From contig OY811971.1 of assembly GCA_963681505.1 (NCBI GenBank), forward strand, positions 23,105,128 to 23,169,127: a stretch of DNA of 64,000 nt. The letters are read 5' to 3'. Below, piece by piece: positions 36,301 through 44,622 of the stretch. Both the position numbers and the translations under genes were made by a program. Source of the DNA: Eunapius fragilis (Eukaryota > Porifera > Demospongiae > Spongillida > Spongillidae). Position 1 is the stretch's first letter. Each line of letters starts with the position of its first letter. The notes beneath the pieces were generated by a model. That model worked only from the letters and a program-made list of their open reading frames with translations. It searched no databases and was not told where the DNA came from.

Positions 36301-36500
36301 NNNNNNNNNNNNNNNNNNNNNNNNNNNNNNNNNNNNNNNNNNNNNNNNNNNNNNNNNNNNNNNNNNNNNNNNNNNNNNNNNNNNNNNNNNNNNNNNNNNN
36401 NNNNNNNNNNNNNNNNNNNNNNNNNNNNNNNNNNNNNNNNNNNNNNNNNNNNNNNNNNNNNNNNNNNNNNNNNNNNNNNNNNNNNNNNNNNNNNNNNNNN
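36301..36500. other. Assembly gap (200 N)
   Basis: Exactly 200 unknown bases. Open frames translated through it carry no information. Confidence 1.
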
Positions 36501-37250
36501 CCTTTGCCAGCATACTTACATGATAATCGAGTTATATCAATTTTTGGATTAAAAAAAAAACCTGTACACATGTTCGTGTATACGAAAAGTAGTTAATGTT
36601 GCCAGCCCGTCTAATCTATGATTTCATAAGCTTCCACGCTTCGCGCGGGAGGGGGCACATCCCCCTCCCGCACCCACCCCCTGTAGTGACCCCCCCCCCC
36701 CCCCCCCTTCGAAAATTCCTGCATCCGCCCCTGCACTCGCACGTGTGTGTTACATACTGTTGCTTCTGGTTGCGAAGCTCCATCATTAAATGGCCATAGG
36801 TTCCAATGTAAGATCAAAGTGGGACAAATTTGCGATCATGCAATATCTACTCCCACAATGTGCGTGTAATGGCTACAGTATAAGCTCATGAAAATTCCAC
36901 GGCGTATCACTACAGTTTGTTAATGACTCAAAGCCGTGAGCCAAACATTTCTCTAGCTATAGCTTTCAGACAATCTTATTTGAAGTGCCTAACTATTGCT
37001 ATTCCTACACCTGTATTCCCCCCCCCCCCCCCCCCTCCCAGCCAATAGACATGTCGTATTATACCCCCCTCCCCCCCCCCCCCCCCCCCCCCCCCCCACC
37101 TCCACCTTCCTTCTTACACGTAAGATAACTGAAATACTTCTACCAGTTCACAACAGAACGTATTCTTAAAAATCACGCATAATTCCTGGCCGGTAACACT
37201 GACAGTGTATATAAGTACATGTGTTCGGCACCTGTGGCTACATAAAGAGG
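36501..37250. other. Repeat-rich sequence left of the CACTA-like element
   Basis: Contains a family D end ('aaaattcctgcatccgcccc' at about 36712), poly-C runs (36689-36707, 37019-37035 and about 37067-37097) and a stretch 'tgtgttcggcacctgtggct / acat' (37220-37243) whose reverse complement recurs at 45893-45917 beyond the right end of the element. No gene is seen. Confidence 0.5.
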
Positions 37251-37292
37251 GTGCCTAGAAAAAATTCTTGTCACGTACTGTCAAGTCTTAAC
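37251..37292 (+). repeat. Left terminal inverted repeat of the CACTA-like element
   Basis: Begins GTGCCTAGAAAAAATTCTTG and continues through ACGTACTGTCAAGTCTTAAC. Pairs with 44581-44622 in reverse complement. The core of 17 bases is identical and the last three outer bases differ. Confidence 0.82.
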
Positions 37293-37379
37293 GTGTTCTT
37301 GTAAGATCTTGTCAAGATTTTGCGCATCTTGCCAAGACTTTATTAATCCTGCCAAGGTTACGTGTGTATGAATTTGATG

Positions 37380-37720
37380 TACGTACATGTACGCGTCATT
37401 TTAAAGGCCTGCATAAAGCATGCCGACTTGTTGTCGAATAAATATGGGTAAAAGTTCCGTATTAGTTTACTGATGGTTTACAGAACTTCTACCTCTAAAT
37501 CTATTCATTTCAGTTGCATGCAACAAGTCGGCTGGAGTCTCCCCGTGATAACCGGCCTGGCCGGCTGCCGACTTGTTGCATGCAACTCGAATAAATATGG
37601 CTAAAAGTTCACTAAACCATGCATCAGAATTATGACAAGTCGGCAGGAAATCGCCGCATGCATATTGCATGTATGCCGGCGCGGCCTTGAGGCGTGCATG
37701 AGGGCGGGGCAATTTAATCA
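37380..37720. repeat. Duplicated 'gccgacttgttg' segments near the left end
   Basis: The string 'gccgacttgttg' with 'gaataaatatgg.taaaagttc' occurs at about 37421-37460 and 37566-37610, and its complement ('caacaagtcggc') at about 37519. It looks like a small foldback insertion inside the CACTA-like element's left arm. Confidence 0.55.
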
Positions 37721-38022
37721 CTCACCTCTGTACAGTTATTCCATGTTCCCTCCATGAAATTCATGCGTGACGTCAAAGGCAAAAGGTCCATTGATTGTGC
37801 AGTAACCTGCATTCGGAGATTTTACTTGTGTTAAATCAGCAGGATGATGATCGACATGCAATTAACCATCCAAAAACTGAAACGTCACACATAGTCATGC
37901 ACATGATGAAGAATACACAGAAACCTTCTAGAATCTAGTTATGATCAAACTTATTGGGCTGTCTGATGACATACAATTCGTTGCTATGACCTTTAACTAA
38001 TACAGCCTTTGATACTATTTGA

Positions 38023-39243
38023 TCATACTAATGAACTCGCTGCACAGTCTCTAACTTTTACAATAAGATTTAGCTTGGTTAAAAGATCTATTTCTTTGTA
38101 TAGTTGTAGATTGTCTCTGCAACAAGGACCTGCATCTTTATACCATGAGTTGCTGTGCAAAGCAAATGGCTTTAACACTGCTTTGGGTGATGTTGAAGAG
38201 AGGACAAAAAATTGGATGCAACCAAACTGAAGTTTGTTGTCACCTGTACTGTATGCACAAACAGAACTGTTCCGCTTTCCCTTAGCTGATTTCTTTGCTG
38301 AACAATAGATCATGCCATCCTTCAGGAACTTAGAGAACTTCAAAATGTTGCCATTTTCAAAATTTATGACTTCTCTCTCATCGTTAGTCACTGAGCTGGA
38401 TGCAGGACCAATAAAATACGCATGTTCTTCTACACACACCATTTGAGTGCGTAGATGCAAATGATGGCAATTCCTGTCTAAATACTGCAATGTGGCATAA
38501 TTTTCATGATGTTTTAAATGCTTATGCACCAATTTCAATGTTAGTCCAACATCTGTGTTGAAGATCAACTGGTCAACTATGTTTCCTCTACCGTGGTAGA
38601 GATGCTTCAGCTGTCCATTCTTGCTTTCCGTACAAAATGCTGAGTATGCCCATAGTGGGCCCAGCTGTCTCACATACATTGCTAGGTGATACAGTGAGTG
38701 AACATTGGACGTGCATGATGATTCACCATACAGTTCAGGCATCATAACATATAACTCATTCAGCATGAGTTCTGCTGCATCAATATGAGGTAATGCTATC
38801 TTCTCTTGCAAAAGTATATGCATAGCACATACTAATAGTGCAAAATGATGTAAGTATAGAGGAGGAAGAAAACCATGTAGAAGAGGAAGAGAGTATAAAA
38901 GTAGCCAGTTTCTTAGTTCAGATGCTTTCCAATGCTTGTGTGATGTAATGCTTCTTGGAGAACGACTAACTTCATGTGGTGGACGTTGCTTAATAAGGAC
39001 TGCATCGATATCTGACACTTTACGTCCAAGATAATAGGCTTTTCCATGATTCTTACTGTCAAACCAGAAGTTGAGTATCATTCTTGTGACCCCCTCCACA
39101 ACTGAATGCATGTATTCAGATGGAATTGAGTATACAAGATTGAGAGATGATGATAAGGGAGATACTCCATTCACTCCATTAACTGCTTTTCCTGTTGTTA
39201 ATGCTTTTTCCCCATCTTCAATCACCTTATCGTGTGTTCTCAT
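38023..39243 (-). CDS. 406-codon open part of the tnp2 transposase
   Basis: This is the longest open frame of the window with normal composition. It starts at an internal Met (MRTHDKVIEDGEKALTTGKA) and covers the C-terminal half of the transposase: EYMHSVVEGVTRMIL, FWFDSKNHGKAYYLGRKVSD, SRSPRSI, KHWKASELRNWLLLYSLPLL, ELYGES, NVHSLYHLAMYVRQLGPLWA, NGQLKHLYHGRGNI. These match the conserved late region of EnSpm/CACTA transposases. It is not a complete gene by itself. Confidence 0.8.
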   Translation of the reverse strand: MRTHDKVIEDGEKALTTGKAVNGVNGVSPLSSSLNLVYSIPSEYMHSVVEGVTRMILNFWFDSKNHGKAYYLGRKVSDIDAVLIKQRPPHEVSRSPRSITSHKHWKASELRNWLLLYSLPLLHGFLPPLYLHHFALLVCAMHILLQEKIALPHIDAAELMLNELYVMMPELYGESSCTSNVHSLYHLAMYVRQLGPLWAYSAFCTESKNGQLKHLYHGRGNIVDQLIFNTDVGLTLKLVHKHLKHHENYATLQYLDRNCHHLHLRTQMVCVEEHAYFIGPASSSVTNDEREVINFENGNILKFSKFLKDGMIYCSAKKSAKGKRNSSVCAYSTGDNKLQFGCIQFFVLSSTSPKAVLKPFALHSNSWYKDAGPCCRDNLQLYKEIDLLTKLNLIVKVRDCAASSLV

Positions 39244-40299
39244 TGAATACTTGTTTGGTAGGTATACACTAGCACCATTAGAAAGCCTCTTTCCAGGGTG
39301 CAGACAAGCAGAGCACCCGCATTCACCATTTTAGTGTTTTTCACATAACACACTGCATTTAGCAGGGGCATTGAAAACTCCAACCACATGTTTTGCAGCA
39401 GCCAGATGATGACTGTACAGTTATTCCATGTTCCCTCCATGTTTCTGTATACTGTACCACAGGTTTTAAGAGGATTTACATATCTGGTTTAGAGGGCCCT
39501 TGCCACAAACCGCACAAAATTATATTTTCTCCTTTAAATCGAATTTGTGGAGGAAGATTGTGTATTATTAAGTACACAGGCCAAAGGGTAGATTTTGTAG
39601 ATTTAAATATTGGAATACCATCCGTTGAATGCCGAGAGCAAGAAACCTAATTGATTGAAGATAAACATCTTTTCTTAGTGCTTCACCACTCCAGATGTCA
39701 TCCACAATATTGCTATCTTTATGTGGTTCATCTGCTTCTAGTTTATCCCAATGATCTGCATCCATGCATGAATATACAATTAATTTATATTTACATAAAT
39801 AATGATGTTCAGTTGTGTATTGCTTACATTTGTCTGTATTTTACAGGTGAGAGCTAGCATTATATAGCTTTTTTATTTTAAAAATGCAATTATACAACTA
39901 AACTTACTTGAAGTTATTGTTTGCAGTGACTGCTCAATTTGAATATGAATCAAATTGCCTATCAGGGATGAAGAATGACAATTTGGGCAGTTAACATTCC
40001 TTGATGTACCATGGCAAGGAGTTGAGCACTGACTGCAGACCTTTGATTATGTGTAAGGAACAGAATAGGCCTTAAAAAACTTTTCAGGATAAATAGTGTC
40101 TTCGGGAGCTTGCTTGATTGTGGACATATAAAATGGAGTAATACTAACAATTCTTGGATGGTTTATCTGATAATTTTGCCCTAATTGCATATTGCATAAC
40201 ACTGCAGTAAGCTCCACACACAGTTACTTTGGCTCCTTCATACAATGACTGAATTCATGACTGTGACATTTTTTCTGTACTCCATTCCATGTTAATGGA

Positions 40300-40660
40300 A
40301 TCTTCCTCATTTCACCACCACCTCCAATACCACCACCAGCAATTCCATCATCTCCAATATCATCATCATCTTCATCATCATCACCATCATCACCCCCACT
40401 ATCCTCATCATCACTAAAACCAACACCACTACCTGCACCATCAAGATCATCTTCACCTTCATGTTCAGCACCACCACCACTGTCACGATCATCATCACTA
40501 CCATGAACACCACTACCATGAACACCACTAATGTCATCACCTTCACATTCAGCATCACCACCACTGTCACCATCATCACCACCACCAACACCACTACCTC
40601 CACCACTACATTCTTCTCCAATTTTAGCACCACAATGAACATCATATCATTACAACTATT
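40300..40660 (-). repeat. (GGTGAT)-rich trinucleotide-type repeat coding an acidic Gly/Asp tract
   Basis: CAC/CAT-rich triplets on plus. On minus, in the transposase frame, they give runs of Gly, Asp, Glu and Ser (SGGGSGVGGGDDGDSGGDAE). It probably expanded by slippage within exon 3 of the transposase gene. Confidence 0.6.
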
Positions 40661-41315
40661 ATCATCATCAGCTATTGCAAATGATGTAATAATAACGAAT
40701 AACTGTTATGAAAACTCTCAATAACTCACCCAAAGGTTTGTCTAAAGAAGATTCACCCATGTCATCATCAGAAACAAACTTCTCAGCAACTGTATAAGTA
40801 CATGATTGCATGCATATAAAGATTGCATGGTCAGTATTATTATTTAATATGCAGCGCTGCGCGCATGAGAGACTATATAATAACTTAGTTCCTTTATGAG
40901 CACTTCAAATATTTAGAGGTTCGCTCAGGCTATGTATGTGAGGGTATGCCTTTATGTAGCATCGGGGAATGCAATATATACATGCACGTATACATTTTGA
41001 TCTCCTTTTAACATAGCCCGAGAAGAGATATTACGGAACTATTGCTACATTAATATTCTTACTCATGTACGGCTGGGTTGAAGCCAAAAACATGACGACC
41101 GAACGTGTAACCACAGGCATGCATACATATACATTTATAATCATATATGCGTGCACGCGTCAGTCACCTATCAAGGGATGTGTAGCTTTTCTTGAATACT
41201 TCTGTGAGTTCTTCCGATGTCTCCAAGAAGTTGTTCTCGGAACAGTAGTCAAAGAGTCTTTAAGATACTTGCGATACTTTCCACGCGATTTCACCACCGT
41301 TGCAATTGTTTCCAT

Positions 41316-41417
41316 TTTGCAGTGTGAATAAATATGTTCAATTTGCCGTATATAAAACAATACAGTTTTAAGTATCGATCAGCACGAGGCGATCACTTAC
41401 AGCTACAGGTTCAAGAT
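41316..41417. promoter_or_regulatory. Shared divergent promoter region between tnp2 and BEN genes
   Basis: Only about 100 bases separate the minus-strand start (41315) from the plus-strand start (41418). The region holds AT-rich 'gccgtatataaaacaataca' with a TATATAAA string (about 41350). It is inferred to be a bidirectional promoter inside the element. Confidence 0.45.
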
Positions 41418-44312
41418 ATGTCTGGAGATGGTAATAAGAGGAAAAGAAAGACTACACCCAAAATGGCTGAGTCAGAATGTGAAGAAGTGTTACTTGACCA
41501 AAACAGTAAGGCGCGCACCATATGCATGCAATATATTAACGCGCGTAGCTATATTAATTGACACGTACATGGAGTGAGAATTGTGGCCGGACCAGTGCGC
41601 AAGATCGGAGCGTATGTAGCTACTTGGGGTATATTATGCAAAGGACGAGCGTCAATTTTTATTGCGGTAGGCCTATGCTAGTATATGTTATTCAAAGACA
41701 TAGTGATTGTTACCACGTGTATGTAGAGAGAACCCAGTCATGTACAGGCATACAGCTAACTGGACATGAACTGGATAGAAATGACGGGGAAAAATAGAAA
41801 TATCGGTTTTGGCGCCAAAACACGTAGCTTGGTCGCGAGGTGTTATTGACCGCAACGACTAATAAATGTATACACTGCGCGTAGCAAAAATAATTAATTA
41901 ATTCATATACTATATATAGAAAGAATTGTTCTGAAATGTTCGCAAACGGGAGAGACTTTGTTTGCACAAGTCAAAGATGTGACCCAGGAAAACATGAAGC
42001 CTATTTCTAATCTGACAAAGGGGGCGGAGCTTCTCTATCGGAAGTTTCGTTAGAAACTTCCATATAGGATTTGACCCCGACTATGAATGTCATTAAAAAA
42101 ACGCGACCCGTCTGTAACAACACTCCCGACGATCGGATCGTGTAGCTTGTTTTAGCAATCGATCTAGAAGTCAAAAATGAGTAGTTTCGTTTTTGTTTCA
42201 TGTCGCTGAACCGCGTGGTTGTTGAGAACAAGAGTGTACTGCCCGTCCTCGTACCCAGTCTCGGAACAAGGGGCGGGTCGTCTTCTTCTCCTCCTTCTTG
42301 CCCACGCATAACTCAGGACAGGAACATTTCTAAGCGATGAAAATTTCACCAATAGCTTCAGAATCGGCTGGAGGACTCGCTTTTATATAATATAATACTT
42401 TGATAAACAATCGACTATCAGCCTCCTATGTCTTGTTAGTCTCGTACCCAGACCGTCTATGACGTAAGCGATTATCGCTGTAAACACTACGTCCATACGT
42501 ATGGACGTAGTGATTACACTGTTTACAGCGATAATCGCTTACGTCATAGACGGTCTGGGTACGAGACTAATGTCTTGTATAATTAAATGGGTATGAAAAA
42601 AATAAAGAAAACAAGTAAATAAAAACATTCTCTACGAGAAAGTTGGTGGGATATAGGATTTGATTATGACATTGGTGGTGTAAAAAGCAAGGAAACAAGG
42701 TCTTATCAGAAGGGAAAATGTCATAGTCCTATATTTAGCACACAAACAACACATGCCCTAGAAATGTGCTAAATATAGGACTATGACATTTTCCCTTCTG
42801 ATAAGACCTTGTTTCCTTGCTTTTTACACCACCAATGTCATAATCAAATCCTATATCCCACCAACTTTCTCGTAGAGAATGTTTTTATTTACTTGTGAAT
42901 TTAAAGGGAGAGCATACCCTGTCCAATTTGTTTCTTACAAAGGTATCTATAATAACTATACGTAAATGAATACTCTATTCCTTTACAGAGGAGATCCCTA
43001 TGACATCCAAGCACAAAGTAGGAATCACATGCTGTATTATTCATCAAGTTTAACATAAACGTTTAGAAATCAAAGCAAGCCACCAAGATTCCCTCAACAG
43101 CTCCAGTATTGCAGCATGGATCAGAATGAAATATTACAACCATATGTGTACCTCCAAAATAGGTTGATACCACAACAAGCAGCAAAAGGCACATTGATCA
43201 AGACAAACCAAAGGTTTGTTTCTTGTATGAATTAACTGTCAATGTGATAGGCATACATATGTCATTCAATGCTGTGCAGGATTCATTCTTGCTTGACGAT
43301 GAAGTAATGAGGAGGGATATAATGATGAAAGCAGCATCAGGTATGTATCTAGAGAAAGTAAATAATGCAGAGTAAAAATTTATCAGTTTCAATCTAATAC
43401 AACAACACATCAGCTGGCAGTGGAGGTGAAATGGTGTGTAAAAATTACTATATTGTATAGCATGCTATTAACTGAACCATATTTTATGCTAATTCAGAAT
43501 GAAACCAGTCCAGAAAGCATACTGACAGTATTTCAATTGAAAATATGCTATTATGTATTAGTTATTTATAGAATGTGGTGTCAAAGGCTATTGAAAAGCT
43601 CGATGGAATGGCTGCTGTACAAGCTGAAATATGTGACAAGATGGAGGAGATTTTGAACCTGTTAAAGTCCACACCAACATTGCATCCTGCGGCAGAAAGC
43701 TTTCCCATTGCAGGTACATGTAATAGAGTATGACACAATGTACTATGTCTTACACAACCTCAATCCCCAGCAACTAACCTCTTACAGTCCATACCAACAT
43801 TGCCTCTTGCAGCAGAAAACATTCCCATCACAGGTACCATAGAGTACGATACAATGTATATTCCTTTTGAAATGCCTTTAATTTATACAGAATCTCAAAC
43901 CCAAGCAACTAACCTACCTGCAACCACAGGAAGCAACGAGGTTATAGTGAGTTGTAATGGAAAAAACCTTTTTACCCATGCATAAATGTGGCCTGCGATC
44001 ACATGCAGGTGAATGGAACAAATGTGATGCTAATTCCTTCAAAGAATCCATACACATTTGGATTCAGTTTGTTAGATATGTTTTTTTCAAAAGAAGAACT
44101 TGCTGTGTGCCTACTATTCCACAGCAGCAAAAGTGACAGGGTTACCCTTGACCAAGCCAAGGTTTCTAAGATCATTGGTTAGATTGAATTGCTTCTTGAA
44201 ATGTATTTATTAGGATTTTATTCCAGAGATTATGAATAAGCGGTACCGACCTGAACAATGGGACATGAAGACATTCGTAACAAAAGCCAACCAGAAATGC
44301 AGGGACTCTTAG
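41418..44312 (+). CDS. BEN-domain protein encoded within the CACTA-like element
   Basis: Exon 1 (41418-41505) starts MSGDGNKRKRKTTPKMAES with a basic nuclear signal. Exon 2 starts at 41920 in agreeing phase (RIVLKCSQTGETLFAQVKD, QENMKPISNLTKGAELLYRK) and its 3' border is unclear because of insertions. Later exons: a short one near 42989-43017, 43116-about 43163, 43280-43340, 43414-43433, 43572-43713 (coiled coil: SKAIEKLDGMAAVQAEICDK), 43771-43833, 43891-43946, 44009-44177 and 44227-44312. From 43280 on, all phases fit. The last two exons give a BEN domain: LLDMFFSKEELAVCLLFHSS, VTLDQAKVSKIIEIMNKRY, WDMKTFVTKANQKCRDS, then TAG. BEN domains bind DNA and recruit chromatin factors. The order basic tail, coiled coil, C-terminal BEN is common. 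The mapped exons are open, unlike the neighbouring transposase. Middle exon borders are less certain. Confidence 0.78.
42010..42340. other. Insertion-like sequence after BEN exon 2
   Basis: Contains a small palindrome ('ggaagtttcgttagaaactt', 42040-42061) and an open minus frame of 100 codons without known motif. It follows directly after the conserved part of exon 2, so it may be an insertion that displaced the original donor site. Confidence 0.35.
42437..42569. mobile_element. 133-bp MITE with 9-bp target duplication
   Basis: A near-perfect palindrome with ends TAGTCTCGTACCCAGACCG. It is flanked on both sides by the identical nonamer ATGTCTTGT (42428-42436 and 42570-42578). A duplication of 8-9 bases fits hAT- or Mutator-type transposition. 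It lies in a BEN-gene intron inside the CACTA-like element. Confidence 0.88.
42611..42896. mobile_element. Foldback MITE, family B, near-perfect palindrome
   Basis: Arms 42611-42742 and 42770-42896 are almost exact reverse complements, beginning ACAAGTAAATAAAAACATTC. The loop of about 27 bases reads 'cacaaacaacacatgcccta'. This is the youngest-looking copy of the family (others at 2327, 7843 and 55688) and is nested in the BEN gene. Confidence 0.88.
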
Positions 44313-44364
44313 CCTTGGTGTTTTACAATATTAAATCTGTGCCAATTAATTCATTATTAATGCC

Positions 44365-44622
44365 TTGCTAAGTCTTAACATGATCTGCATGGATCTGGGG
44401 TAGTCTTGATAAGTCTTTGTTTCAAATTCAGGTCAAGTCTTGATAAGACTTGATAAGACATGATAATCTTTGCTAAGTCTTGCTAAGTCTTGCCAAGTCA
44501 TGCTTGGTAAGTCTTGATAAGACTTGGCAAAACTAGAGTAAGTCTTGTGAGGTGAAGCTTGGTAAATCTTGACAAGTCATGATAAGACTTGACAAAACGT
44601 TCCAAGAATTTTTTCTAGGGTG
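44365..44622 (-). repeat. Right subterminal repeats and terminal inverted repeat of the CACTA-like element
   Basis: More than ten copies of AAGTCTTG, GATAAGACTTG and close variants in both orientations lead up to the terminus at 44622. In plant CACTA elements such subterminal repeats are bound by the TnpA protein. Here the candidate binder is the BEN protein. Confidence 0.8.

Follow-up and report, generated by a model that had tools for sequence, protein, structure and literature searches.

Plant transposons of the CACTA (En/Spm) superfamily have CACTA ends and 3-bp duplications, and carry arrays of subterminal repeats. They encode a tnp2 transposase, TnpD, and a second, DNA-binding protein, TnpA, which is not known to be a BEN protein. 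The CACTA end of the plant elements is also given in the account of the animal TRC elements (PMC1636069), in which Spm is described as one alternatively spliced transcription unit that requires both TNPA and TNPD, with TNPD stabilizing TNPA on DNA. Animal TRC elements have CCC ends and 2-bp duplications (PMC1636069, PMC4298943); a Tribolium TRC end reads CCCTAGTAGC..., and 2-bp direct repeats are found in 7 of 14 SmTRC1 copies (PMC1636069). SmTRC1 and other animal TRC elements combine Transposase_21 with CCC termini and additional small proteins, and for two of the latter, PrA and PrB of S. mansoni, that account gives alternatively spliced transcripts and no detectable relatives (PMC1636069). 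Here we describe an element of about 7.4 kb at positions 37251-44622 of a 64,000-nucleotide window of the sponge Eunapius fragilis (contig OY811971.1, 23,105,128 to 23,169,127, forward strand), whose family shares these TRC features. Like the plant elements it pairs a tnp2 transposase with a second protein, here a BEN-domain protein; unlike Spm and the S. mansoni element, it places the two in separate, divergent genes.

We propose that the BEN protein is probably the element's own second protein, a putative animal counterpart of plant TnpA that binds the element ends; several related copies keep tnp2 and BEN together, and BEN thus looks like the missing second protein. In the window the tnp2 gene lies on the minus strand (37938..41315, ATG at 41315) and the BEN gene on the plus strand (41418..44312, ATG at 41418), with a presumed divergent promoter in the 102-bp spacer between their start codons (41316..41417), in agreement with a first-pass annotation that had put the starts about 100 bases apart. 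A BEN query of the genome returned 63 exon matches, which were grouped into 41 loci and compared with a Transposase_21 list of 150 scored candidates out of 305. Ten of the 41 loci have a divergent tnp2 on the other strand, 2.4-4.2 kb away, where chance would give 0.67 tnp2 neighbors of any orientation within 12 kb; one further locus has a non-divergent tnp2 match at a distance of 6.4 kb. The count leaves out the window's own pair, whose tnp2 is absent from the scored list. The dispersed copies with both genes that the first-pass annotation had proposed as a check exist, as ten divergent pairs by coordinates, six of them inspected in sequence (L040, L042, L064, L043, L066 and L067). In these six and in the window, tnp2 and BEN point apart, and the close start-codon spacing (~90-100 bp) is seen only in the window, L042 (about 90 bp) and L064. 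This joint carriage supports the earlier suggestion that BEN is the second protein of the element, its role at the ends being putative.

The surroundings of the BEN loci give a similar picture. Of the 29 BEN loci with downstream sequence, 22 have a CCC-type terminus no more than about 1 kb downstream, which implies that those 22 are not ordinary host genes. The first-pass annotation had named a BEN gene at a conserved host locus outside the element as a counter-indication; the downstream terminus speaks against this for the 22 loci, and in the other seven none was found. Four of 15 loci also showed the terminus pattern upstream of BEN, none with arrays behind, and a downstream match at L037 was discarded for its lack of arrays. 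An ordinary BEN gene that came by chance to lie near an unrelated tnp2 fossil could be entertained for the window copy itself, which is decayed and whose left 205 bp had no other match in a genome search, although such an absence of matches does not show rarity; set beside the pairing statistics, the termini, and the clade and co-divergence results below, this explanation is extremely improbable.

The two genes share their descent. In a 34-row tree of sampled tnp2 sequences the eight BEN-labelled rows lie on one side of a branch with support of 100/100. Sampling drew on 20 short tnp2 stretches and 8 loci, L076 and L079 being dropped (<80 residues); rows were labelled by BEN neighborhood and the others came from the Pfam list, so that the tree tests for clustering within the sample and is no census. 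The eight rows include L065, although its right half is missing, and the BEN locus near L084, at 6.4 kb, is not divergent and lies past the end of its own BEN element. Pairwise identities of tnp2 and BEN in six elements of this genome correlate with r 0.95, a value that only the true order reaches among 720, and with three presumed foreign pairs included r is 0.83 (1 of 5000). Between families, one BEN exon (55-56 codons) has a non-synonymous divergence (dN) of 0.24-0.35 against a synonymous divergence (dS) of 1.9-2.7 or saturated, with similar values for tnp2. These observations bear on the possibility that a host BEN gene fragment was captured once by an ancestral element and is now a passenger with no role. 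Capture of host genes is known from CACTA elements, and the BEN exons show no constraint between the near-identical copies of one family (family B, below). Across families, however, BEN has been kept while the tnp2 proteins of its carriers have diverged to only 38-47% identity, with dN far below dS and with co-divergence, and its position and orientation agree between the window copy and the six other inspected copies; a passenger would hardly be kept so long, and we regard this explanation as improbable.

The boundaries of the element are consistent with a TRC affiliation. As the first-pass annotation had it, matching inverted ends (37254-37295 and 44578-44619, 86% complementary across 42 nt) enclose repeat arrays and both genes. 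Their outer 17 nt are perfect: the left repeat, CCTAGAAAAAATTCTTG, lies at 37254..37270 on the plus strand, and the right repeat at 44603..44619 on the minus strand, where the next base completes CCCTAG. The ends thus read CCTAG/CCCTAG and not CACTA; the right end fits the CCC rule and the left reads G-CCTAG. The element is flanked by GTG on both sides (37251..37253 and 44620..44622). The left GTG may be a target-site duplication, or else the flank is TG and the element has lost one terminal C; this ambiguity excludes the window copy from the count of 2-bp duplications. The true terminus of the relatives is CCC (CCCTAG in copies of families A and B, CCCAAGG in L043), and 2-bp flanks are equal in 8 of 10 testable copies, where 1 in 16 is expected per copy: 7 of 9 in family B, as judged by eye, and L043 with AC/AC. 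As the relatives start with CCC and most have equal 2-bp flanks, the window element fits the animal TRC branch of CACTA/EnSpm, as a DNA transposon with two genes that has since decayed. The earlier label "CACTA-like" holds for the superfamily; the relatives, with CCCTAG or CCCAAGG ends and 2-bp flanks, do not have the classical plant features, CACTA ends and a 3-bp duplication. The nearest relative found for the window copy is L040 on C6. Just left of the element the window contains 200 N (36301-36500), followed by long C tracts at ~37018-37098. Spongebob (EnSpm-4N1_HM) of Hydra and insects likewise has CCC ends, a 2-bp duplication and TRC class; it differs in that its description includes no second gene and a transposase that was undeterminable in that study (PMC4298943).

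Subterminal repeats occur at both ends of the element, as annotated. The left array (37267..37370) is built of CTTG/CAAG and AAG[AT]CTT units and the right array (44370..44602) of AAG[AT]CTT units with a 10-bp period. The left 260 bp hold two and the right 260 bp ten occurrences of this palindromic motif; it is absent from the interior, and it is rare in the interior of L064 (0.10 per 260 bp). At the 10-bp period the right array has a self-match of 0.564 against a maximum of 0.336 among 131 internal scan windows, which the left end (0.304) does not exceed; in L064 both ends stand out, with 0.452 and 0.500, the highest of 98 internal scan windows being 0.356. The ends of L043 hold 15 and 24 CATG against 2.3 per 260 bp inside, and the array motif thus varies by family, with AAG[AT]CTT in two and CATG in a third. 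Human NACC1 and NACC2 BEN domains prefer CATG, and selection of unmethylated sites by BANP requires that it be oligomeric (PMC11472053).

We infer that each BEN protein reads the array of its own element. In the mechanism that we propose, the BEN protein, probably as an oligomer, would bind the repeat arrays just inside both ends, and the bound protein would either mark the ends or bring them together for the transposase; in addition, it might act on the shared promoter as a control or counteract silencing. If such regulation were its main task, BEN would be a regulator that represses or de-silences the shared promoter and takes no part in cut-and-paste. The head-to-head arrangement of the genes and the BAH-like tail of the transposase, itself a chromatin module, would suit such a regulator, and VANC, which acts on VANDAL elements, offers a parallel. 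BANP selects unmethylated CpG motifs (PMC11472053) and TNPA reactivates the methylated Spm promoter (PMC1636069). Arrays that stand at both ends, with a motif absent or rare in the interiors, are less readily explained by a promoter function, and we consider a mainly regulatory BEN protein rather unlikely; a regulatory role is nevertheless compatible with end binding and does not exclude it. More tentatively, two chromatin-type modules may drive this branch, a RAG1-like/BAH-like transposase and a BEN protein whose specificity tracks the array, and some host BEN factors might descend from such proteins.

Several observations weigh against a BEN protein that serves the ends of its element. No divergent Transposase_21 match in the scored list accompanies 31 of the 41 BEN loci, seven of which are short copies that have lost tnp2, and a second BEN query added seven loci, none paired in the scored list (compared by eye). 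No terminus was found downstream in 7 of the 29 BEN loci with downstream sequence (L016, L030, L032, L036, L037, L039 and L067), and two of the nine family-B copies (C1:17355116 and C23) have unequal 2-bp flanks. The ends of the window and L064 elements show no enrichment of CATG, and CACTA elements commonly have subterminal repeats, which need not be BEN sites. Finally, no constraint is visible among the near-identical BEN copies of family B: compared with L064, seven further copies have BEN exons that differ in 9 synonymous and 38 non-synonymous codons, with no stops and one indel, where differences common to several copies were counted each time. This lack of constraint is expected if BEN acts in trans, and argues against a benefit in cis.

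Family B also illustrates how the two genes part company. Its copies with both ends comprise two of 5.7 kb (L064 on C6, and one on C13), two of 4.7 kb (L042, without the middle BEN exons, and C23, whose tnp2 is fragmented), and seven of 2.7-3.1 kb that retain BEN and just the last 33-47 tnp2 codons. The seven lie at C3:12613634-12616688, C8:5791561-5794258, C2:6996021-6999084, C1:19531437-19534500, C1:23382308-23385286, C5:3958719-3961778 and C8:425140-428196, and form a non-autonomous derivative, which has spread while carrying a BEN gene of its own. Selection to keep BEN in such BEN-only derivatives is unsupported: relative to L064, five short copies show 4 synonymous and 30 non-synonymous codon differences, of which many are shared, one exon of the C3 copy being omitted for an indel. 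The copies without BEN are L065, which is truncated and has no right end, and short end-only matches. L065 was set aside as an example of a tnp2 copy lacking BEN, as it stops inside a BEN intron and has neither the start region nor a right end. The first-pass expectation that tnp2 and BEN are always found together is borne out by the ten pairs; L065, the end-only matches and the short copies run against it only weakly. At G000:C20:4700104-4832931 six same-strand BEN loci lie within 133 kb with no listed tnp2 nearby, and are perhaps a local duplication of BEN-only elements.

The identification of the plus-strand gene as a BEN gene holds, on the basis of Pfam scores for the spliced domain and a predicted fold. 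The BEN domain of the window (Pfam PF10523) is encoded by two exons (44009..44312, plus strand); one exon alone is weak in Pfam (expect value (E) 0.038), and the spliced domain scores 24.3 bits, compared with 24.5 bits for L064 and a cut-off of 23.2; a relative, P0002, falls below the cut-off at 19.4 bits. The 15 best structure-match rows for the predicted fold of a relative are all BEN domains. A sequence search of the PDB gave BANP alone, with E 0.7-1.1, too weak by itself. A search of the whole genome with PF10523 gave three matches, none divergent with tnp2, the one on C11 having a same-strand tnp2 8.6 kb away. The protein starts with a basic N-terminus and continues through a small 'GKxYPVxF' domain and a variable linker to the C-terminal BEN domain. 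With borders set by eye, the exons of the window gene lie on the plus strand at 41418-41505, 41920-42048, 42989-43017, 43080-43213, 43280-43340, 43414-43433, 43572-43713, 43788-43833, 43891-43946, 44009-44177 and 44227-44312, and the middle ones fail to join in one open frame. Two perfect palindromes with arms of 51 nt and 132 nt (42436-42570 and 42611-42896) lie in a BEN intron; they have the look of young fold-back insertions and are probably later nested insertions. Behind the BEN gene of L067 an open reading frame for a PIF1-like helicase (L067:5986-6999, 74.6 bits) follows beyond a stop codon, in frame with the last BEN exon, and is either a neighboring Helitron-type element or extra cargo.

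The tnp2 (Transposase_21) gene of the window was delineated on the minus strand by homology to P0004. It comprises a first exon from 41315 to about 41161, an acidic stretch at about 40646-40224, an N-terminal domain in three frames at about 40308-39900, and a RAG1-like (RAG1/Transib-type) catalytic core with a BAH-like tail at 39786-37938. Between 39331 and 39400 there is one stop, and Asn replaces the second catalytic Asp of the relatives; together with the three frames of the N-terminal domain, this shows that the window copy is decayed. The open part (38023-39330) by itself gives no significant Pfam match to Transposase_21, and the window region is 54% identical to L042, which scores 63.0 bits for Transposase_21 against a cut-off of 28.6. 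In 49 aligned relatives D41, D128, C147, H352, H356 and E376 are invariant and C150 is present in 47, where the rule, a D, D, E triad whose second D and E enclose C(2)C and H(3-4)H motifs, was taken from PMC12730594 and the positions were assigned in the present analysis. The fungal CMCT transposons that carry TET/JBP likewise combine these motifs with an added chromatin-related gene; their cargo is a dioxygenase passed between transposon lineages (PMC12730594), whereas BEN here was found with one tnp2 clade among those sampled.

The BEN domains of BANP, NACC1, BEND6 and Insv have the same fold, several of them solved on DNA (PDB), and differ in belonging to host chromatin or transcription factors and not to transposon proteins. 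The first-pass annotation knew of no accessory role for BEN in CACTA elements, and our search of the literature, mostly outside subscription papers, for BEN domains with CACTA, EnSpm, transposase or transposable element found nothing similar. The second proteins of the animal branch, as described for TRC elements (PMC1636069), had no recognizable relatives; a conserved BEN partner would give this role an identity, a structure and a testable DNA target. If this is correct, BEN domains would join the machinery of a mobile element, which bears on the origin of animal BEN regulators.

Related proteins occur in other genomes. The tnp2 protein has 330 protein matches of the same kind, 120 of them listed, including Halichondria panicea, and the BEN protein has 61, including Ephydatia muelleri, whose proteins are its closest named matches (97% across 24% of the query). 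Among 120 tnp2 and 59 BEN proteins from other sources, the (longest) source-contig sizes coincide for four where 0.41 are expected; three sizes with an agreeing source (6513, 6913 and 30567; summed local chance about 0.01) probably mark foreign contigs that hold both genes, as judged from the matching sizes alone. The fourth coincidence, 2770, was rejected as a pair because the sources differ. When prokaryote genome contigs and viral contigs were scanned with an alignment of tnp2, the pattern matched 3 and 13 times, respectively, with no match confirmed. One Ephydatia muelleri gene model, P0003 (Em0011g523a), joins N-terminal exons like those of the BEN protein to a DEAD-type helicase, probably because part of a transposon was taken into the annotated gene; annotators should be aware that BEN exons of such an element lie inside a published gene model.

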